From positions 124,001 to 188,000 of the forward strand of contig NZ_FNUR01000004.1 in NCBI RefSeq assembly GCF_900108105.1: 64,000 nucleotides of DNA. The letters are read 5' to 3'. A program made the translations under genes and the position numbers. The DNA comes from Butyrivibrio sp. Su6. Lineage in GTDB: Bacteria > Bacillota > Clostridia > Lachnospirales > Lachnospiraceae. Shown piece after piece: positions 22,045 to 51,880 of the stretch (positions are counted from its first letter, which is position 1; every line of letters starts with the position of its first letter). The notes under the pieces are model-generated. The model searched no databases, was not told where the DNA came from, and worked only from the letters and a program-made list of their open reading frames with translations.

Positions 22045-22145
22045 AAGAAGTATTAAACATCACTAAAAACAGCACATAAACATACACTATAGCGTATAAT
22101 TATAAGACAGCTACCGGATACGTTAAAAAGTAAAGGATGCGTATT

Positions 22146-23156
22146 ATGAAGAGAATAATTAGAAAAGGTGTAAGTGTTTTTTTCTGTGTTGTGATGCTTT
22201 TGGTGACAGGGTGTACCCCGGAGCAGATGAGGAATTTGAATATTGGCGATGCCAGTAGCTTGCAGGTTGCACAGTTGACCGCAAAAGCAGCAACGGATAC
22301 GTCACAGGGTGTTGGATATAAAAAACAAGAAAAAGGATCGGAAGCTTTAGAAAAGCGAAATGATGAGCCTGAAGGTGCTGATGTAGTAATTCAGGTTGCT
22401 GTTACAGTGGAACTGGAAGGCGTATTAAAAGCTTTTGGTGAAGAAAAGCTTGAGCGATGCTATGATGCGGCTGGTAAGTATAATTTTTCATACTATCGAT
22501 TTAAAAAGAATGATAAGGATATCGTTGTGGTCATGCAACCATATATGGGAATGACCTATTGCTCAAGTTTGTGTACGAGAGCAATCCTGGCATTCAAGCC
22601 GGATCTTGTATGTATGGTCGGAATATGTGCAGGTCGCGCATCCAAGGTAAATCTCGGAGATATTGTGGTAGCTTCCAGTGTATTTGATTATGCGGAAGGC
22701 AAACAGTATGAGGATAAATTTGCTGCAAGACCTAAGACCAGACCAATGGATTATATGTTATCAGAGTATTTAAGCAGTGAGATTGCAGATAATAAAGAAA
22801 TAGTAAAAAAAATCTGTGATGGATATCCAAAGGCACCTAAGGACGTCAATATATCATTTCATTCCATGGCCAGCGGAGTAGTTGTTGTTGATGATCCCGG
22901 TGTAATGGAACAAATAGCTCAGTTGCAGGATGATGCAGTGGCACTTGATATGGAAGCTTATGCATTGGCAACTGCTGCGGATCTTATGAACACGAAATGG
23001 ATGGTGATAAAAACAGTCCAGGATTTTGCTGATGGAAATAAAGCTGCTACTGAAGGAGATATCAGGCCGTTTGCAGCGTATTCAAGTGCAAAGCTTTTGG
23101 ATATTATTCTTGAAGAAATCGACTCTGATGATTGGGAAACAATAATGAAATACTAA
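22146..23156 (+). CDS. Lipoprotein with nucleoside-phosphorylase-like domain
   Basis: 336 residues. The signal peptide ends in the lipobox LVTGC (Cys about residue 22), so the protein should be lipid-anchored outside the membrane. A polar linker follows. Then comes a domain like the MTA/SAH nucleosidase and purine phosphorylase superfamily: DVVIQVAVTVELEGVLKAFG, ALAFKPDLVCMVGICAGRASKVNLGDIVVAS and DMEAYALATAADLMNTKWMVIKTVQDFADG, with the usual substrate-binding ME pair and catalytic-type Asp. An exported version of this normally cytoplasmic enzyme is unusual. The start at 22146 follows AAAGGA by 8 nt. A -10 TATAAT lies at 22095-22100. Confidence 0.82.
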   Translation: MKRIIRKGVSVFFCVVMLLVTGCTPEQMRNLNIGDASSLQVAQLTAKAATDTSQGVGYKKQEKGSEALEKRNDEPEGADVVIQVAVTVELEGVLKAFGEEKLERCYDAAGKYNFSYYRFKKNDKDIVVVMQPYMGMTYCSSLCTRAILAFKPDLVCMVGICAGRASKVNLGDIVVASSVFDYAEGKQYEDKFAARPKTRPMDYMLSEYLSSEIADNKEIVKKICDGYPKAPKDVNISFHSMASGVVVVDDPGVMEQIAQLQDDAVALDMEAYALATAADLMNTKWMVIKTVQDFADGNKAATEGDIRPFAAYSSAKLLDIILEEIDSDDWETIMKY

Positions 23157-23214
23157 TGCAATAAAATTTCAAACAGATTGTAGTTTAAGAAAAATTTAAT
23201 TAAGTAGACGTAAA

Positions 23215-23282
23215 AAATCCCTTTCTATAAGTCGATAATACCATTGATGGGTATATGTATTGATTATATATGAAAGGGATTT
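23215..23282 (+). promoter_or_regulatory. Hairpin that would mask the ribosome-binding site of the phosphoesterase gene
   Basis: AAATCCCTTTC at 23215-23225 is exactly complementary to GAAAGGGATTT at 23272-23282, with TATA on the inner side of each arm extending the pairing. The right arm contains the AAAGGGAT ribosome-binding site of the gene starting at 23286. If transcription starts upstream of 23215, the leader would fold and hide the site. Confidence 0.5.
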
Positions 23283-23285
23283 CTT

Positions 23286-26200
23286 ATGAAGAAAAAAACA
23301 GCTGTAAAAATGACTATGGCGATGGCAGTTTCATGGGGAATGTTTCTGGGTGCCTCAATTGTCGGATATGCTAATGATGTAGATGAAAACAACAATAATG
23401 AAGACATTGATGAAAGTAATGAAAATATTCCTTCTGATGAAGAAGAAAAGCAGGATGATTCTGCCGATGAGCAGGACGAAAATGTAAGTAATATTGAGAA
23501 TATCATTCCAGTTGAGCAAAATGATGTTCCGTCTGAAACTAAAGAGGCGGGTTCAGATGATAAGTCTGTTGATGAGAATAAAGCTGAAGAGATAAAGGAT
23601 GAAGACTCAGACAATAAGGCGTCCGAAGAAATAAAGGACGAAGAGACAGGTGAAAAGAAGTCCGAAGAAATAGAGTCTGAAGAAACAAGCGAAACTGCGC
23701 CTTTAGAGGAAAAGAGCGAAGCAAATACAGAAACTCAGGAAGTTGTGGAAAAAGATACAGTTGAGCTTGATACAAGTGGACTCCAGCCAGGTACAGACAA
23801 TGTATCTGCAGATGAGGCAGGTGAAGGCGATGCACCTGTAGCTACTATGATGCTCAGAAGTGCGGCTCCAAGGATGATGGCGCTAGGAACGGCTGCTACT
23901 CCTGATACAACTACCACTGAAACAGACACACCAGATGCTACAACTACTGAAACAGATACATCAGATTCTAGCGGAGGCGAAACTGCTCAGCCTCAGCAAT
24001 TTGTAGAAGCAGGTTCTTCCAAGGAACTGGATAATGGTCAGCCTGCAACACAGCATATTTCTATTGCAATCCTGTCTGATACTCATTATGTTTCTAATGA
24101 TCAGAAGCAGGGCCATGGTATTCAGAACATGGATACAACAGCCGTAACTGAAATGAGAATGCTTGAAGAAATAGACAGCATCATCAATGTCTCACTGGAT
24201 CAGGTCACTGAATTTGATCCGGATTGTCTTTTGATCTGCGGCGATCTTACAAGTAATGGTGAATACTCGGGAGCTCAGGCTCTTGCAGATAAACTAAATG
24301 CGTTAAAGAGCAAAGAGGGCATGGAGGATGTTGGCATCTATGTTGTTAACGGAAACCATGACATCAATAATTCTTATGCTGCTGATTTGACGCCAGAGGA
24401 GATTGCCAAGGCTCAGCGAATTGGACCTGAAGACTTTAAAACAGTATTTGCGGGACTTGGATACGGAGAAAACGATCACTGCGAGGGTGGAACAAGAACT
24501 GTATATAATCCTCAGGGTGATGATCCTTCTGTTGCCCAGAATCACGGCGGACTTTCCTATGCTACGGAAATAGCTGAAGGAGTTACGCTTGTCGTTATGG
24601 ATACAGGCATCTACAGCTATGAGGATCTTGTTAACTCAAGATATGGAAACGCACAGAAAACTGCGGGATATATTTCTGATGGCCTTTTGAAGTGGGTTGT
24701 TGAGCAGACTCAGGCGGCTAAAGAGAAAGGAAATCTCGTTCTCGGAATGTGCCATCATTCAATAATGCCCCATTGCTCTATAGATACTAAGGTTACTCAA
24801 GCGTACATGTCGGAATATATCATAGGTAACCATGAACAGGTTTCAGCTGCACTGGCTGATGCCGGTATGTCTGCAGTCCTTACAGGGCATTCCCATGCAA
24901 ATGATATTGCAAAGTACGTATCTGAAAACGGAAATGTTCTCTACGATATTCAGACAGCAGCTCTTTGTGCTTACCCTGTTGCCTGGAGACAGATAAATAT
25001 TGATATTACGGGCAGTGGAAAAGATGCGGTGTACAATTTTTCCATCGATACCTCATTCATAGACAAAGAATTTGGGGATGTGGACACTTCTAACTGGAGT
25101 GTTACAACAGGTGGCGCTGTTAAGAAATTTGATGATGATTATCAGGGCAGTATGCAGGATTACAGCTATGATAAATCCGGAATCAGGCAGGAAAGCATAG
25201 GATCGTTTATTGATTATTTCGCAAGAGAGATAGCTTACTCTATAACAGAGACTCCGGGAGGAACTGAGGCGTACCTCAAGAATACGATAAAGTACTCCGA
25301 GGACTCATTGGGCGACTATGCACTTAATCAGACTACTGAATTGGCCAGAAAGAATGATAAGTTTGCTACTGATTTTAATATGCCTTGGCTAGGAAATGTG
25401 TCGATTACCGCAAACAGAATAAGCGACGGCAGTGAAGACAGCATTATAAAGTATGATGTATCAATAAAAAGCAGCACAAATGAAGAGAGAGGTACTCTTA
25501 AAGTTAACCTTACCGCCCTTGCCGGTGGTGTAAATAATATGGTTACTGCCATAAATAATTATCTTAATGTTGATGGATGGAAGGAAAGCAATTACAAGAG
25601 TTCACCAATTCAAAAGGAAGTAGTTACTCTTTTATCCAATGCACTTATAAATGCGCTTTCAAAACCTATTGATGCAAATGATCCAACATCAACCGGAATG
25701 AATATTGCCATTGATGCCCAGCAGGCGTTTGCAAGAGGCGATGAAGGGGCTGTTCAGACTGAAAAGAGAGCTAAATACCAGGCGCTTCTAAAAAGCGAAG
25801 CATTTGAAAAGTACCTCAATGAAGCATTATGGGGAGCAGTTGGAGATGCGACCAAGAAAGGTACATATCCTATTCTTGGCGAAATATTATCTACTTCTAT
25901 AGCTCCTGAAGGGCAGAATACGATTGCAGCTATTACCGATATCACTTCTCCGACATCTATGTATATTACAATTGTAAATGGACTTGCTTCAACAATGAAT
26001 TCTGCTTCAGGTATCATACAGGCAATAAGTGCACTTCCGGGATTCAATGCCTCTTCAATAATGAGCTTTGCGTCCAAGCAACTGATAAATGCTTTTGCAG
26101 AAGTGCAGCTATCAATGACCCAGGACACCAATATTCCAAATGATTCAAAGTGGCAGTTCCATACAATTAATCTCTACATGGGAGATGATTATGAAATTGT

Positions 26201-45148: not shown

Positions 45149-46174
45149 ATGAGAAAGTTAAAGGAAAAAAAGCCACTGATATTCACCGTCTTAATTGCCG
45201 TGTTGTGCATGATTATTGCCTTTTTGATAAGAACTATATATATAAATGCCACAGCAGGACCTTATGAAGTTACAAGAAAAGAAATAGCTGATTATTTCAG
45301 TACACAGCTTAATACTCAGGACAATACTGTAAAAAAAGGCGTGCAGCAGATTATGCTCGGTACAGTATCAGATAATTACGACACTACGCTTGACGCTTTG
45401 AAACATGTTAAAGCTGCCGGATATGATTATATAGAGATAAATGATTTCATGATAGAAAAATCTCCTTTTATAGTAAAGCTTTTGACAAAAATTGGTGGAA
45501 TGGACATAGGAAACAGCTGTAATCAGGATTGGCATACGCTTATTTATGAGAGCGGGCTCAAGGTAAGCAGTATGCATTCAAATCTCGGTGCAATAGAAGC
45601 AGATCCTGAGAAAGTTGCGAATCTTGCAAAAAGCTATGGCACAGACGTAGTTGTTATAACAGGAATGTACAGATTTGATTATAGCGATATAAACGAGGTT
45701 GAGAGTCTGGCAGAGCGGTTAAATACTGCAGGAAAAGCTCTGAAAGAACACGGCGTAAAGCTTTTATATCATAATCACAACTGTGAATTGCAGAAGGTTT
45801 CAACGGATAAGACAGCTTATGATGTGATTATAGAAAACACTGACGATGAATATGTGAATTTTGAGCTGGACACATATTGGATGACTGACGGAGGCGCTGA
45901 CGTCTATCCAATAATAGAAAAGCTTGGCTCACGTCTTAAGTACTGGCATATTAATGACAGAGGAAACGCTCAAAAAGGACCATATATGACACCCATCCTT
46001 AAAGAAAAGGCCACAGAGCTTGGAAAAGGCAATATGAATCTTAAGGGCCTTTCTGAAGTCATAAAGGAAAATGGTGTTATGGCAGTTATTTTGGAAACTC
46101 ACATGAACTGGATTGACAATGATCCGGTAAAGAGTATCGAAGTGAGTTCCGAATTCATGAATAAATATTTTTAA
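45149..46174 (+). CDS. Membrane-anchored xylose-isomerase-like TIM-barrel protein
   Basis: 341 residues: an N-terminal anchor/uncleaved signal (IFTVLIAVLCMIIAFLIRTIYI), then a sugar phosphate isomerase/epimerase (AP2Ec) barrel. Visible barrel motifs are AAGYDYIEINDF, VSSMHSNLGA, GVKLLYHNHNCEL (metal His/Glu region), FELDTYWMTDGGADV (metal Asp), LKYWHINDRG (His) and VILETHMN (Glu). So the metal site is probably complete, but the protein faces outward. The sugar or cyclitol substrate is unknown. No sugar transporter lies nearby. Confidence 0.85.
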   Translation: MRKLKEKKPLIFTVLIAVLCMIIAFLIRTIYINATAGPYEVTRKEIADYFSTQLNTQDNTVKKGVQQIMLGTVSDNYDTTLDALKHVKAAGYDYIEINDFMIEKSPFIVKLLTKIGGMDIGNSCNQDWHTLIYESGLKVSSMHSNLGAIEADPEKVANLAKSYGTDVVVITGMYRFDYSDINEVESLAERLNTAGKALKEHGVKLLYHNHNCELQKVSTDKTAYDVIIENTDDEYVNFELDTYWMTDGGADVYPIIEKLGSRLKYWHINDRGNAQKGPYMTPILKEKATELGKGNMNLKGLSEVIKENGVMAVILETHMNWIDNDPVKSIEVSSEFMNKYF

Positions 46175-46475: not shown

Positions 46476-47183
46476 TTATTTTTTTCTTAAGAGCACCTTC
46501 AAATCTGCTTCTTTTCGGTTCATCTTCGCAATGGAGGACAACGTCGGTATGTGCATGGGGCATACGTCCATACAGGAAAGGGCCTTTGAGCAGCTGTTTG
46601 CAAAATGTTCAGCGTAAGAGCTGGTGATATCCTTAGCTTTTTCCCTGTTGCGAGCCTTTACCAGATAGCAGTCATTGGCATAAAAAGCGCCATAAAAAGA
46701 TTTCCCATTTGTATAATTTGGACAGATTTCCAGGCAAAGTCCGCACTTTAAACAGTTTGCCACAGCATATTGATGCTCGTGGTCTTCTTTTTCTTTGGGA
46801 TTGTATTCACCAATATACACGTTGGTGCTCTTTAGTGTTTCGTGAATCACGCTTCTGTCCACTATCAGGTCGTGAACCACGGGGAATTTCCTTAAGGGGC
46901 GAAGTACCACTTCATCGCCTTTGAGATTTTTGAGGAAAGTTTCGCAGGCAAGAGCCGGAGTCTCATTTATCACCATGGCGCAAGCACCGCACATGCCCTG
47001 CAAGCAGGAACTCTCCCATCCAATGCGATCTGTTTTTTCACAACGGTCATTTCTGATGTCGTCGCCGAAATTAAGCTTGTCCAGTACTCCGGCAATAGAT
47101 ATTTCCTTGGTTCCTTCGTAGTCAAAAGACTCCCAGTAGGGCTCAGAATCAGGGGCTTTTTGCCGTAAAATTCTAATCTTCAT
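46476..47183 (-). CDS. frdB: Fumarate reductase/succinate dehydrogenase-type iron-sulfur subunit
   Basis: 235 residues with three Fe-S clusters. The plant-type 2Fe-2S has Cys in SSCLQGMCGACAMVINETPALAC, the 4Fe-4S in CLKCGLCLEICP and the 3Fe-4S in CSKALSCMDVCP. It passes electrons between the haem membrane subunit and the flavin subunit. The start at 47183 has GGGAG 7 nt upstream and overlaps the flavoprotein gene by 11 nt. It is the last gene of the aconitase-X/reductase operon. Confidence 0.9.
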   Translation of the reverse strand: MKIRILRQKAPDSEPYWESFDYEGTKEISIAGVLDKLNFGDDIRNDRCEKTDRIGWESSCLQGMCGACAMVINETPALACETFLKNLKGDEVVLRPLRKFPVVHDLIVDRSVIHETLKSTNVYIGEYNPKEKEDHEHQYAVANCLKCGLCLEICPNYTNGKSFYGAFYANDCYLVKARNREKAKDITSSYAEHFANSCSKALSCMDVCPMHIPTLSSIAKMNRKEADLKVLLRKK

Positions 47184-48807
47184 AAGTATTCTCCCTGTCA
47201 AAGGTTACCAACATGTTTCCTTCATTATAAGAAATGATCGTAGCAGCCCTGTACTCTTCGGTGGCCGTAGGATAGTCGCTTCGATAGTGGGCACCACGGC
47301 TTTCCTTACGCGCATCGGCACAGGTGAGCGCAGCAAGAGCCAAAGTCAGTATCCCTTTCAGGCTGTAATTGATGTAAGCAGAGACACTGGAATCATAATG
47401 TATACGATCAGCAACTGACAGATAATAGCGCACATCCTCCATGCCCTTAGATAGAGAATCCGCAGAACGGACAATGCTCATGTGTTCTCGCATGGTGTCC
47501 GCTAGTAAATCACGGATGTGCATTGCAGCAAATGGGCTATCGGATTCAAGCATCTTTTTAAAGCATTCCTGCTCTGCCTGAATATAGCTATCAAAATTCG
47601 CGCGCTCAACCAAGGCGTTTTCTCCCAAAATACTCTCTGCCGCAATCTTTCCACTGTACATAGCCGACAGTAACGAATTGCCCCCAAGTCTGTTGGCGCC
47701 ATGATATATGGATGCGCATTCGCCCACAGCATATAGTCCCTGGATATTCGTTGAATGGTCCTTGTGCACAGCCAGCCCACCCATAAAATAATGAACAGAG
47801 GGTGCCACAGGAATCGGCTCTTTTGAAATATCTATTCCCCTGTATTTGGCACAGATGTCACGGACCTCTGGAAGCCTTGAATCGATCAGCTTCTTGTCAA
47901 TAAATGAGATATCCAGGAACACATCCCTGCCAGTAGCTATGATTTCTCTAGCGATGAGATCGCGGGTCATTAGATTCCCACCGGGGCCGTACTTATCCTC
48001 CATGAAAAAGACCTTTCGATCACCATCTTTGTAAAAGAGCCTTCCACCCTCGCCGCGGACAGCCTCTGAAATCAGCATTCTCTTTTGTGGCGTTTCAAGC
48101 GTGGTTGGATGGAATTGGATAAATTCAAGATTCTTTAGGGCTGCTCCTTGCAAAAAAAGCTTTCCCACTGCGTATCCGTCACATCGGTTTGAACCAGTGG
48201 TCTTGCCAAAAAGGCTGTTCTGCCCACCGGTCGCCATTACAAGGGCGTCCGCATATACTGGCACAAGCACTCTTGCATTTTCATCATAAAGAAGGGCGCC
48301 GTAGCAACGACCGTCGCGTATCAGTGCTGAGTAAAAGTGGTGCCTCATGATTCGGGTTATAAGTCCTGCAGCTTCGAACCTGCGGACCTCCATGACCAGG
48401 GCCGAGACAATGTGCTTACCTGTAGAAGAACCGCAGTAATGCGTCCGCTTGTAAGTCTGTCCGCCAAAGGCCCTAAGCACCGGACGGTCGTTCTCATCTA
48501 CAGAGAACACCGTTCCGATCCGCTCCAGATAATGAATGATCTCTTTTGCATCCGAGCAAAGCCCTTCAACAGCATGACTGCCTGCCAGATAAGCGCCGCC
48601 CTTAAGGGTATCCTCAACATGGCACTGCACGCTGTCGCCCTCCTCATGTCTTTCGGTAACTGCATTTATTCCGCCTGCAGCCATTACAGACTGGGACTGC
48701 TCCGAAGGTCCAGGGGCAATCAGCTTAACCATCATACCCAATTCAGCACAGTGTATGGCGCACATCATTCCCGATATACCATTTCCAATTATCAGTATTT
48801 CCTTCAT
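47173..48807 (-). CDS. frdA: Fumarate reductase-type flavoprotein subunit
   Basis: 544 residues. FAD-binding GNGISGMMCAIHCAELG, the QSVMAAGGINAV loop, then the active-site motifs FIQFHPTTLE, SEAVRGEGGRLF (with the catalytic-type Arg), HYFMGGLAV and GANRLGGNSLL. Covalent-flavin His context cannot be judged with certainty (QSQSVMAAGG lacks the usual HT-AQGG His, suggesting non-covalent FAD). Residues used by fumarate reductases are kept, so fumarate or a related enoate is a fair acceptor. It lies between the membrane and Fe-S subunits in an operon headed by aconitase X. Confidence 0.88.
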   Translation of the reverse strand: MKEILIIGNGISGMMCAIHCAELGMMVKLIAPGPSEQSQSVMAAGGINAVTERHEEGDSVQCHVEDTLKGGAYLAGSHAVEGLCSDAKEIIHYLERIGTVFSVDENDRPVLRAFGGQTYKRTHYCGSSTGKHIVSALVMEVRRFEAAGLITRIMRHHFYSALIRDGRCYGALLYDENARVLVPVYADALVMATGGQNSLFGKTTGSNRCDGYAVGKLFLQGAALKNLEFIQFHPTTLETPQKRMLISEAVRGEGGRLFYKDGDRKVFFMEDKYGPGGNLMTRDLIAREIIATGRDVFLDISFIDKKLIDSRLPEVRDICAKYRGIDISKEPIPVAPSVHYFMGGLAVHKDHSTNIQGLYAVGECASIYHGANRLGGNSLLSAMYSGKIAAESILGENALVERANFDSYIQAEQECFKKMLESDSPFAAMHIRDLLADTMREHMSIVRSADSLSKGMEDVRYYLSVADRIHYDSSVSAYINYSLKGILTLALAALTCADARKESRGAHYRSDYPTATEEYRAATIISYNEGNMLVTFDRENTYED

Positions 48808-48816
48808 GCACCAACC

Positions 48817-49380
48817 TCAAATATGTAAAAACATTGACAACTGCCCTTTTATAACGGCAAATGTAGTTATAAGCAACATAGCAGTCATCATGCACCAGAC
48901 AATTCTGTCCGCGAGTCTGACTTTCTTTTCATCAACAAGTAAACCTAGGGTGATGCATGCCTTGGATAAAGAGATAGACGTGTGCACTGTGATAACCACG
49001 TAAAAAAGAAGTTGCAGTACAAGCAGCATTGCAAAGCCAATCCAGATACCGCTTTCCGCGCAACTTTTCAAAGCTTCGAAAGTCTTTAGATGAACGATAA
49101 GAAGCGGAAAAATCAAAGCCGCCGAAATACGTTGGATTATGGTCCTCCTGTTCTTTTGTGGATATATGTCAAGCCTTGTACCGTCACCAAGCAGAAAAAC
49201 AGAGCACATGCCACAGATTGCATGGGCGCACATCAGCACCACAAGCGGCATGGCAGTGGCAAGTTTTAACGTCGGATTATAATAGAAAGTGATATAAGAA
49301 AAACAGTTGTATAACATATGCACCACCAAGGCGAAGGACGACAATAGCCCCAAAACTGCATTAATTTTTTTCAGTATCAT
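48817..49380 (-). CDS. Haem b membrane subunit of the fumarate-reductase-type complex
   Basis: 187 residues with five membrane helices. Four His fall within helices (His21, His53, His97, His133), the pattern expected for two bis-His haem b groups in Wolinella/Bacillus-type SdhC/FrdC. It would link menaquinol to the soluble subunits. The start at 49380 follows AGAGGTC; the frame from 49413 overlaps the upstream gene and has a weak site. Sequence similarity to known FrdC is low, so the call leans on topology, His positions and position before frdA/frdB. Confidence 0.78.
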   Translation of the reverse strand: MILKKINAVLGLLSSFALVVHMLYNCFSYITFYYNPTLKLATAMPLVVLMCAHAICGMCSVFLLGDGTRLDIYPQKNRRTIIQRISAALIFPLLIVHLKTFEALKSCAESGIWIGFAMLLVLQLLFYVVITVHTSISLSKACITLGLLVDEKKVRLADRIVWCMMTAMLLITTFAVIKGQLSMFLHI

Positions 49381-49405
49381 TTTTTGACCTCTATCAAAAG
49401 TATTA

Positions 49406-49849
49406 TCAATCATCTACTTCAACAATGCCGCCATCCTTTACATTAACAGTCATGCCGGTCTTCACATATGATAGGAATTCTTCGCCAAGGCTATCGATAG
49501 TTGGCATTTTAGCCTCTGTCCAGATATCTGCCAAAAGAACTCCCGCAGCGCCAATAGAATCAATTGGGTTTGCAAAAAGCATGCAGGCGGGCTGCCTTCC
49601 GTAATCAGCAGCTGTAAATAAGATCATGCCACCAGTGGTTGAACCGATGGTCTGGGGAAGACAGAGTGCTACCCCCGCCATAGGTTTTTTGTATATGTCA
49701 GGATTGTTCTGATCTGAACAAGTTGCCTTTTTGTCTCCTGTAAGAAAACTTGTCTGATAACTTGCAAGTGTATTAAAACCGCCATGAGAAACAAGCGCTG
49801 TTGCACTGCATTGTCCCGGTATCACTACTCTACCCTTAAACTCTTTCAT
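49406..49849 (-). CDS. Aconitase X small (swivel) subunit, DUF126
   Basis: 147 residues. It matches the swivelling domain of aconitase X: FKGRVVIPGQCSATALVSHGGFNTLASY, IGSTTGGMILF and FANPIDSIGAAGVLLADIW. It partners the large subunit encoded 2 nt upstream. GGGAGG lies in the upstream coding end. Split large/small subunits mark the type II aconitase X enzymes. Confidence 0.9.
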   Translation of the reverse strand: MKEFKGRVVIPGQCSATALVSHGGFNTLASYQTSFLTGDKKATCSDQNNPDIYKKPMAGVALCLPQTIGSTTGGMILFTAADYGRQPACMLFANPIDSIGAAGVLLADIWTEAKMPTIDSLGEEFLSYVKTGMTVNVKDGGIVEVDD

Positions 49850-49851
49850 GA

Positions 49852-51129
49852 TTACATCCTCCCCCTCCCAGTGATCATTTGTAAGATCTTTTTGTCTTCA
49901 TAGAATCTGCATGAGGTGTAAGTCCTCAGTTTATTGGAATTGGTGATTATTGGAACAGAGTGAACAAGCGGATTATCACAATACATCAAAGGACAAATAT
50001 AACTAAGTGTCAGATGGATTTCCTCTGCCATGCTCTCTTCTTTGCTTCCCCTGATTGCATCCAACACTCCGGGTGCAGCAGTAAGAACGGTGGGAATCGT
50101 TGTAGTCTTTTTTCCACTTTCTTTTACTCCCTCATATATGTCGTGAATCCAGCCTATAAGCTCAGATTTTGAAAGATGAGGACATCCAATGAAGCACATT
50201 TTAGGCTTTGCATCTTTGTTCTTCCAAATGATCGGATAACTATCTATTACTCTTTGGATTTCTGCATCGTCTATTACATAAGTCCTGGCATTATCTGCTA
50301 TAAGGCTCTCTCCCAGCTCAACGGCTTCAGGAGTAAGCTTGTCGATATGATAAAGACCTACTGCGCCATTAGACGCTGTAGCAGCCCCGAAGTTTTTTAA
50401 ATAATCGCAAACCTCTGGAGTAAGTTCTTTTCCCAGAAAATCTGATAGCCCGTAGACATATGGCACATCTTCCATAACTTTCATGCCTATGGCAGAACCC
50501 AGAACCTGCGCGGGCGGAAGCTTAGTTGTCTTAACTTCCACCTTCCAGGTGGCCTTTCTGCCTTCGTCTGTAAGAAGCCCAAACTTTGGAACACATCCAA
50601 GAATTGATCCAAAAAGCTCTATGATTCCGGAATTTCTGTTGCATCTTGCTCCCAAAACAGAATTGGCATATACAACTGCCGAGGACTCAGCCCAGCTAAG
50701 AATATCGCCTTTCTTTGGCCTGTTGCCCTGCTCATCAAAGTAGCAGGCACACGAAAAACTGTCCTTACTTTTAAGCCCAAGTTTAGACAGCTGTTTTTCA
50801 TATCTCTTTTGCTCGGAATACATGAATTTATAAAATACAAGATCCTGGATAACATTCGATGGAACGTTCCTATCAAGAGGTCTTGGATCCATCGTGAATT
50901 GCTGCTTGGAAATAACCCCTGCACCAATAAGTTCATCCATTAATTTGTAGACAGGATTAATTACCTGAAGACCAAAACTAGTTACAAGATGCCCATATTT
51001 ACCTGTAACTTCAACCATTTCCTCCGCCCCAAAGAGCTCTCCGTATCTTACCAGAGTCTCCATGATTTTGGCGTAAGTTTCACCCTTTTTGCCGTCGTAG
51101 ATTTCCTGTTGCTCGCTTGTAAGCCTCAT
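49852..51129 (-). CDS. Aconitase X catalytic subunit, DUF521
   Basis: 425 residues of the aconitase superfamily. Fe-S Cys candidates are in FSCACYFDEQGNRP, GARCNRNSG, IGCPHLSKSE and YTSCRFYED. Known members dehydrate cis-3-hydroxy-L-proline or mevalonate 5-phosphate. None of the usual neighbours of these pathways (proline racemase, reductase, prenyl transferase) is here. Instead the gene heads an operon with a fumarate-reductase-type complex. The start is 51129 or 51132, after GGGGGA. Whether this enzyme makes an enoate that the reductase then uses is an inference discussed in the findings. Confidence 0.9.
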   Translation of the reverse strand: MRLTSEQQEIYDGKKGETYAKIMETLVRYGELFGAEEMVEVTGKYGHLVTSFGLQVINPVYKLMDELIGAGVISKQQFTMDPRPLDRNVPSNVIQDLVFYKFMYSEQKRYEKQLSKLGLKSKDSFSCACYFDEQGNRPKKGDILSWAESSAVVYANSVLGARCNRNSGIIELFGSILGCVPKFGLLTDEGRKATWKVEVKTTKLPPAQVLGSAIGMKVMEDVPYVYGLSDFLGKELTPEVCDYLKNFGAATASNGAVGLYHIDKLTPEAVELGESLIADNARTYVIDDAEIQRVIDSYPIIWKNKDAKPKMCFIGCPHLSKSELIGWIHDIYEGVKESGKKTTTIPTVLTAAPGVLDAIRGSKEESMAEEIHLTLSYICPLMYCDNPLVHSVPIITNSNKLRTYTSCRFYEDKKILQMITGRGRM

Positions 51130-51253: not shown

Positions 51254-51880
51254 TCATTTTCCATCAGGAAAACTTGTGAATGCGTCTCTTTCCACTACCG
51301 GAAGGCCATATTTTTCTTTTGCATCGGAAAAAGCCTTTATCATGAAAGACATATTCCTTGCAAGATTTCTCATTGTCTGAAGTCCCTCAAGATCTTTTTT
51401 AACATCTTCGGCATCAAATCCATGCACCTGATTCCAGTATGTGCTTGAAGCCACCGGCATTCCGCTTATGGTAAAGTACTTGTTCAGAACATCGAAACTT
51501 GCAGTATTGCCGCCTCTTCTGCAGCTTACGACAGCCGCACCGACCTTCATCTGCTTTGAAAAAGAAGTACTGTAAAAAAGCCTATCCATAAAAGAAAGGA
51601 TTGTACCATTTGGGGAGCCGTAGTAAACAGGGCTTCCTACAACAAGTCCATCTGCCTCTTCGAACTTCCCTGCAACTTCATTTACAAGATCGTTAACAAC
51701 ACACTTTCCATTTTTCTCGCAATACCCGCAGGAAACGCAGCCACGGATATCTTTATTGCCTACGTGAATGATCTCCGTCTCTATTCCTTCCTTATTGAAT
51801 ATCGAGATCATCTCGTTAAGAGCAGTAGCTGTGCAGCCATTTGCCTTTGGACTGCCATTAAGTAAAAGAACTTTCGCCAT
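51254..51880 (-). CDS. Iron-sulfur flavoprotein (NADPH-dependent FMN reductase family)
   Basis: 208 residues of flavodoxin fold: LLLNGSPKANGCTATAL (FMN phosphate loop) and GSPVYYGSPNGTILSFMDR. A compact Cys motif, CVSCGYCEKNGKC, matches the 4Fe-4S of archaeal/clostridial iron-sulfur flavoproteins. Role: low-potential electron transfer or reduction of O2/peroxide or quinones. AAGGAG precedes the start. It lies upstream of, and in the same direction as, the aconitase-X operon, about 125 nt away. Confidence 0.9.
   Translation of the reverse strand: MAKVLLLNGSPKANGCTATALNEMISIFNKEGIETEIIHVGNKDIRGCVSCGYCEKNGKCVVNDLVNEVAGKFEEADGLVVGSPVYYGSPNGTILSFMDRLFYSTSFSKQMKVGAAVVSCRRGGNTASFDVLNKYFTISGMPVASSTYWNQVHGFDAEDVKKDLEGLQTMRNLARNMSFMIKAFSDAKEKYGLPVVERDAFTSFPDGK

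Follow-up and report, generated by a model that had tools for sequence, protein, structure and literature searches.

Aconitase X next to a fumarate-reductase-type complex in a Butyrivibrio-like genome: two separately distributed gene groups and a recurrent OYE-type partner

Five open reading frames (ORFs) stand in a row on the minus strand, at positions 51129-46476, of a 64,000-nucleotide stretch of the genome of Butyrivibrio sp. Su6 (contig NZ_FNUR01000004.1, positions 124,001 to 188,000), referred to here as the window. The first two encode the large and small subunits of aconitase X (AcnX; AcnXL and AcnXS) and the following three encode a complex of the fumarate reductase type, composed of a membrane cytochrome b (CytB), a flavoprotein (FrdA) and an Fe-S subunit (FrdB). 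The question raised by this locus is whether the five genes constitute a single pathway, as proposed in an earlier note on this DNA, in which AcnX would remove water from a hydroxy acid and the complex would reduce the product at the expense of menaquinol. The survey described below shows that the five-gene pairing is not conserved and is a one-off among the genomes surveyed. The explanation favored here, with moderate confidence, is that two independently distributed cassettes recently became neighbors, and that AcnX normally feeds a reductase of the OYE type (OYE/2-enoate-reductase-like).

The identities and order of the genes given in the earlier note are borne out, as Pfam names four of the five products and all of them are encoded on the minus strand in the order stated above. 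AcnXL and AcnXS are separated by 2 nucleotides (nt), AcnXS and CytB by 25 nt, CytB and FrdA by 9 nt, and FrdB overlaps FrdA. AcnX and CytB are probably co-transcribed; scans for promoter-like sites (15 vs. 11.4 ± 3.2 expected) and terminator-like sites (9 vs. 5.0 ± 2.3 expected) gave no clear signal on the limits of the operon.

Distribution of the two gene groups and their junction

AcnX proteins of the same subfamily (at least 50% identity) were surveyed in 31 other genomes or loci, of which seven belong to the genus, nine to a sample of the order and 15 to a sample of the family; AcnX matches of any kind occurred in 18 of the 392 genomes of the order sample and in 29 of the 397 genomes of the family sample. 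The reductase survey comprised 13 loci, obtained by scanning genome contigs with CytB, and five additional distinct loci (L018, L138, L139, L140, and L203), while the coordinates of L002, L003, L004, and L006 show that these duplicate the genomes of four other genus matches. CytB-FrdA-FrdB was present and AcnX absent in all 13 loci from the cytochrome b scan. No AcnX gene was found near the reductase in any of the 18 other reductase loci, 16 of which are informative (L005 and L139 show only 2 bases upstream of CytB), and no reductase was found near AcnX in any of the 31 other AcnX loci, of which L084, L085, L088, and L090 show less than 800 bases downstream. Related genomes carry aconitase X apart from the complex, an observation that runs against the five-gene pathway and that the earlier note itself had named as counting against it.

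The same picture emerges at the level of whole genomes. Among 79 genomes of the genus, only 47 of which reach 90% completeness with no more than 5% contamination, so that single absences are not firm, AcnX occurs in 8, FrdA (at least 60% identity) in 9 and both only in the window genome, that is, one genome observed vs. 0.91 expected by chance. Three further genomes of the genus with long FrdA relatives 41–46% identical (G021, G101, and G086) and all those with weaker flavoprotein matches were left uncounted as reductase genomes; the relative in G021 has an FrdB-like neighbor and no CytB match. Outside the genus, G310 is the only one of the 24 AcnX genomes with a clear full-length orthologue of FrdA (54%), and its CytB-FrdA-FrdB trio lies on a different contig from AcnX, followed by two same-strand genes for proteins of 554 and 565 amino acids (L203:2844-9290). 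Another genome (G320) has a partial FrdA match (45%) with an FrdB-like neighbor and no CytB match. No virus-borne AcnX was found (two stretches matched and none was confirmed).

The junction between the AcnXS stop codon and the CytB start (49381..49405, minus strand) was delimited by blastn end points and aligned flanks. Similarity of AcnX to the loci of the genus reaches the AcnXS stop codon or falls up to 16 bases short of it; only in L082, which belongs to another genus, does it run 8 bases past the stop. On the other side, similarity of the reductase to close relatives ends at 49391-49406, i.e., 11–26 bases upstream of the CytB start, and to more distant relatives at the CytB start itself. 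In the genome with the most similar AcnX (G089, 97% identical over residues 103–431, where the contig edge sets the limit), the DNA that follows AcnXS is unrelated, and FrdA had no match there. For both halves, the nearest relatives occur in the absence of the other half. As the surroundings of AcnXL/AcnXS in the genus mostly differ (L075 and L076 share upstream neighbors, and L075 and L078 one downstream neighbor), these genes behave as a two-gene cassette. An assembly error could account for a join that is seen in one genome only and whose two halves have different relatives, but it is highly improbable, since the join lies inside a 3.70-Mb Butyrivibrio-like Lachnospiraceae assembly of 23 contigs (99.99% complete, 0.01% contaminated), at a stop codon, with the purine-rich, ribosome-binding-site-like stretch before CytB intact.

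The OYE-type partner and the predicted activity of AcnX

An OYE-type neighbor of 663–760 amino acids encoded on the same strand as AcnX occurs in 17 of the 31 AcnX loci. The partner in L082 was scanned with Pfam (PF00724 and Pyr_redox_2), four with NCBIfam and one against the Protein Data Bank (PDB), and the rest were assigned by BLAST to these; L128 and L130 belong to one genus and are nearly identical, so the independent cases are fewer than 17. Sixteen of these genes lie directly upstream of AcnX, with gaps of 12–61 nt in 13 cases and a full range of −25 to 170, and the remaining one (L135) lies directly downstream, overlapping AcnXS by 4 nt. Identity to the L082 partner is 74–100% in seven loci (itself included), about 60% in four, 28–30% in five that have a long form of the protein and 37% in L135. 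In a tree built by a quick method, with long branches flagged, the long form, L135 and the rest stand on well-separated long branches. As judged from these sequences, the partners are at least three well-separated groups and not one gene carried along. In an AcnX tree obtained in the same quick way, the genus clade (8 rows, support 99) groups with the OYE-linked L082 and L122 (support 100), and OYE linkage changes at least six times. For AcnX in general, the dehydrate-then-reduce chemistry put forward in the earlier note is therefore probably correct, although the reductase is not the one proposed there.

All eight AcnX genomes of the genus have an OYE orthologue (76–79% identical to the L082 partner, partial in G029), which is not adjacent to AcnX in the stretches seen; that of the window genome (G000) lies on another contig (C8:159978-162038). 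By a hand count among the matches listed, to which the following comparisons are also limited, 36 of the 79 genus genomes have the orthologue at 72% identity or more. Its presence in 8 of the 8 AcnX genomes corresponds to a hypergeometric p of 0.0012, uncorrected for kinship, while its presence in 5 of the 9 reductase genomes (p = 0.39) indicates no tie. The window genome also has a second OYE paralogue, 57–58% identical to the L082 partner (L184:4026-9679; contig C7, about 22115-24175), which stands behind a 2-hydroxyglutaryl-CoA dehydratase D-component-like protein, a BcrAD/BadFG ATPase and a CdhC-like protein; L185 has matching neighbors in the same order, again with OYE beside a dehydratase-family protein.

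The AcnX partner shares PF00724 and Pyr_redox_2 with BaiCD, the long form of bilirubin reductase, 2,4-dienoyl-CoA reductase and NCR (PDB 6qkg). The partners miss the equivalog cut-offs of BaiCD and bilirubin reductase widely (e.g., 342.4 vs. 825 for BaiCD) and differ from known Fe-S flavoenzymes of the OYE family in their pairing with AcnX. A literature search (non-exhaustive, through titles and abstract openings, with DUF126 alone outside its scope) found no pairing of AcnX/DUF521 with an enoate or fumarate-type reductase; the module of AcnX and ene-reductase may be undescribed, although so limited a literature is no proof of novelty.

What AcnX itself may do was approached through its residues, which were mapped on TkAcnX and AtAcnX in 32 AcnXL and 26 AcnXS rows, those of AcnXL being numbered as in the 431-residue ORF. 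AcnXL (49852..51129, extendable to 51147, minus strand) matches Pfam AcnX PF04412 with 280 bits (cut-off 31.5), and AcnXS (49406..49849, minus strand), the small swivel subunit with the general-base Ser in GSTTGG, matches PF01989 with 41.6 bits (cut-off 27). The cluster ligands Cys133, Cys322, and Cys385, as well as Glu154, Ser155, Lys406, and Tyr410, are invariant in the 32 AcnXL rows; the equivalents of Cys342, Lys361, and Tyr365 were placed by motif and by alignment with type I AcnX, the HMMER alignment stopping at query residue 361. In AcnXS, the general base Ser70 is conserved in 25 of 26 rows and Thr71 in all of them. Two arginines of AcnXL, Arg89 (28/32) and Arg408 (32/32), lie near the conserved motifs of the subfamily, DPRP and SNKLRTYT, and could bind a second acidic group.

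Like type IIb AcnX, represented by TkAcnX/ApPMDh (mevalonate 5-phosphate dehydratase; 7cnr/7cns), the window protein is a heterodimer; the three cluster cysteines, the Ser that acts as base and the carboxylate/hydroxyl-site residues Glu, Ser, Lys, and Tyr are common to both. According to PMC8184944, Asn53 and Asn79 of TkAcnX bind the phosphate by their side chains, and Gly48, Val49, and Ser50 by the main chain, a kind of contact that cannot be judged from sequence. In contrast to TkAcnX, the window enzyme has Leu, Gln (Gln61), and Asp (Asp87; Asp in 31/32) at the positions of Gly48, Asn53, and Asn79, and Thr at that of Ser50, while Val49 is kept (31/32); a two-residue insertion follows the phosphate loop, and the DPRP and SNKLRTYT motifs are conserved. 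With AtAcnX (7cnp/7cnq) it shares the family, the reaction type and the Thr72 position (Thr in 26/26). The same study gives Asp203, Ile206, and Thr72 of AtAcnX as specific for the dehydration of cis-3-hydroxyproline (C3LHyp) (Watanabe et al., 2021, PMC8184944). The window enzyme differs in that the Asp203 position (Ala47 of TkAcnX) is His in 30/32 rows and the Ile206 position Thr in 28/32, and in that it consists of two subunits, unlike type I; its score with the NCBIfam model of C3LHyp dehydratase (NF051439) is 124.4 bits, far below the cut-off of 700.

In PMC8184944, types IIc–IIf are described as devoid of both sets of landmark residues and in need of characterization; passages of that paper and of PMC10040528 assign no function to the bacterial subfamilies IIc–IIf. 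The window AcnX fits this description in its sequence, in a manner that is not assignable to one letter, and is predicted to be neither a hydroxyproline nor a phosphomevalonate dehydratase. That it is nonetheless one of these two enzymes, in a neighborhood devoid of meaning, is very improbable, even though these are the only two AcnX activities characterized in the passages mentioned and the residues equivalent to AtAcnX Thr72 and TkAcnX Val49 are kept; the score with the C3LHyp model, the His at the Asp203 position, the loss of Asn53 and Asn79 and the two-residue insertion all argue against it.

More distant homologs add little on substrates. The ten proteins encoded next to four distant AcnX relatives (25–28% identical) are other enzymes and transporters and provide no substrate lead; in one case (L091:3622-9937), an AcnX 28% identical stands beside an Ldh_2-type dehydrogenase, an aromatic amino acid lyase and a flavin/Fe-S oxidoreductase. 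A plasmid of Rhodococcus opacus PD630 encodes an AcnX (L206:12001-13730) 46% identical in which the subfamily motifs are kept; its neighbors are a LysR regulator, an MFS transporter, an SDR and hydrolases, and the phenylpropionate-type ring-cleavage genes located a few kb away are a possible substrate lead. The presence of selenocysteine in the AcnX of G310 and G449 was considered and rejected, as the TGA in question precedes the start codon.

The membrane reductase and its surroundings

CytB (48817..49380, minus strand) is probably a diheme-type membrane cytochrome b, FrdC/SdhC-like by its invariant histidines and fold ranking. Its start was set at 49380 (MILKK), where the homologs begin, instead of the 49413 given by the ORF caller. 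His21, His53, His97, and His133 are invariant in 11 aligned sequences, window included. Searches of the CytB sequence gave no Pfam or NCBIfam match at E 0.001 and no match to PDB sequences below E 0.05 (best 0.054, cytochrome b6). No Foldseek hit of the AlphaFold model (mean pLDDT 84.2) reached E 0.001; the best one (E 0.027, probability 1.00) was subunit C of quinol:fumarate reductase, and the first five rows (E 0.027–0.043) were all C subunits of this enzyme or of succinate dehydrogenase. VIA-align also placed a quinol:fumarate reductase C subunit in its top row (2bs3_C/1qlb_C; Z 12.9, 3.8 Å over 174 residues), the top six rows all being C subunits of this kind with Z 12.2–12.9. The four histidines and the Z of 12.9 to FrdC of Wolinella agree with a five-helix diheme anchor, but the Z values are to be read with the knowledge that helical bundles reach Z of about 13 by their arrangement alone and that b561 comes next at Z 12.0.

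FrdA (47173..48807, minus strand), identified through Pfam (FAD_binding_2 and Succ_DH_flav_C), PDB alignments and active-site columns, is a short flavoprotein of 544 amino acids with its highest PDB score to L-aspartate oxidase. The residues corresponding to the catalytic His232, Glu245, Arg287, His355, and Arg390 of Escherichia coli FrdA are kept in 19/19 rows (these stand for the window and 16 further genomes, of which two appear twice), and the Thr244 position is Ser in 18/19. Since this active site is of the standard fumarate type, a plain fumarate reductase is the simplest reading of FrdA. The position of His44, the residue of covalent FAD attachment, is Gln in 19/19 rows, which suggests that the FAD is probably non-covalent. 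In known enzymes non-covalent FAD accompanies one-way fumarate reduction, and some other fumarate reductases also do without His44, so that its replacement is compatible with this function. FrdB (46476..47201, minus strand) matches Fer2_3 (92.1 bits) and Fer4_8 (32.3 bits), and its translation shows the cysteine spacing of a [2Fe-2S], a [4Fe-4S], and a third cluster; its start is ambiguous, the ORF start at 47201 and an internal ATG a few codons further being equally possible.

The window complex shares with the diheme quinol:fumarate reductase of Wolinella succinogenes and with succinate dehydrogenases of the Bacillus subtilis type the four histidines, the active-site residues, the likely fold of the C subunit and the gene order cytochrome b, flavoprotein, Fe-S protein. 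It differs from them in the replacement of the FAD-binding His, in its short flavoprotein with the best PDB score to L-aspartate oxidase and in that neither MenD nor MqnA/D was detected. Among the nine genus genomes that have the trio, no MenD exceeded its cut-off (best 64.1 bits, cut-off 244.2), nor did any MqnA or MqnD (a single match of 24 bits in G094, cut-off 26, and none in the host), while the MenD control was above its cut-off in 7 of 14 genomes and the MqnA/D control in 4 of 14. The reading that the electron donor is menaquinol made by the cell itself finds no support in these results, which leave room for scavenged quinones. A UbiA-family protein occurs in two of the nine genomes (G000 and G094); in G074, G020, and G069 (98–99% complete) none was found. 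That of G000 stands beside a membrane glycosyltransferase-like protein and need not be MenA. Tocopherolquinol is an electron donor in Butyrivibrio; the non-exhaustive literature search found no paper on it in this genus.

On either side of the five genes lie neighbors of other families. Upstream on the same strand, at 51254-51880, 106 or 124 nt from AcnXL according to the start chosen, is the gene of an FMN_red-family flavoprotein (Pfam) with a CxxCxxCxxxxxC motif. The earlier note had suggested that it may share the pathway; as such a protein was labeled next to AcnX in the window alone, the 31 other AcnX loci showing no such label, it was discarded as a member of a conserved pathway. Downstream, at 45149-46174 and convergent with the reductase operon, is the gene for a xylose-isomerase-like TIM-barrel protein (IolE-like, below cut-off), which is adjoined by the gene of a TetR-type regulator.

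Alternative explanations and biological meaning

According to the explanation favored here, and judging by homology, Ser70 of AcnXS would take the alpha proton of the substrate while the exposed iron of the three-Cys cluster takes the beta-hydroxyl, with the Lys/Ser/Thr/Tyr set holding the carboxylate, so that a free (non-CoA) 3-hydroxy acid would become a 2-enoate. This product would normally be reduced by a cytosolic flavoenzyme of the OYE/2-enoate-reductase type, such as the one encoded on the other contig of the window genome, so that, in net terms, an organic acid would be reductively dehydroxylated independently of CoA and serve as electron sink. CytB-FrdA-FrdB would be a stand-alone, complex II-like reductase, probably working one way from a fumarate-like to a succinate-like compound, with electrons from a quinol that has no detectable route of synthesis.

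Several observations weigh against this explanation. Neither an OYE-type gene nor the complex lies nearby in 14 of the 31 AcnX loci, among them the seven others of the genus (L075–L081; in L080 and L081 less than 1 kb upstream is visible), and the R. opacus AcnX has no gene of the OYE or fumarate reductase type beside it. In 28 of the 79 genus genomes (among the matches listed), the OYE orthologue is present but AcnX is not; it therefore has other uses. The genus genomes of good quality are those 47 of 79, which leaves the separate occurrence of the two cassettes less firm for any one genome. Moreover, the shared strand and the 25-nt spacing are what a functional operon would look like. We would judge a chance landing directly in front of an operon for the reduction of activated double bonds to be improbable a priori; on the other hand, this case was chosen for its striking look.

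The last points lead to the alternative that the partner has been swapped in the window, the product of AcnX being reduced by the membrane complex instead of OYE and the hydroxy acid serving as a respiratory electron acceptor. This is a refined form of the idea of the earlier note, and a possibility that we hold to be doubtful. Besides strand and spacing, it would agree with the repeated pairing of AcnX elsewhere with ene-reductases of different sequence groups, which makes an exchange of reductase usual for it, with the active site of FrdA, which suits an alpha,beta-unsaturated dicarboxylate, and with the second acidic group that Arg89 and Arg408 could bind. It has to contend with the fact that the arrangement occurs in one genome only, the nearest relatives of either cassette being without the other, that an OYE orthologue is still present in the genome and that neither MenD nor MqnA/D passed the cut-off. 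Another connection between the two halves, in which AcnX would be an alternative fumarase that converts malate to fumarate and feeds a plain fumarate reductase, is improbable. The fumarate-type active site of FrdA, with its His, Glu, Arg, His, and Arg in all rows, would suit it, but a class I fumarase-type protein (PF05681, 394.6 bits) is already encoded in the host genome, the OYE-type partners found elsewhere are not typical fumarate reductases, and AcnX was not found in the other eight reductase genomes of the genus.

Under the favored explanation of two cassettes, the pairing of AcnX with OYE narrows the search for the function of types IIc–IIf to 3-hydroxy acids with reducible 2-enoates, and predicts a fermentative electron sink that would need no activation by CoA. 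As a broader and rather speculative proposal, which we consider unlikely, AcnX and a swappable ene-reductase may represent an undescribed CoA-free reductive dehydroxylation module of the Lachnospirales. The window would hold its respiratory version, with a quinol-linked reductase of the complex II type in place of the usual OYE-type partner, a scavenged quinone and a hydroxy acid of plant or host origin as terminal electron acceptor. If this version works, a Butyrivibrio-like bacterium would be able to respire with such an acid.

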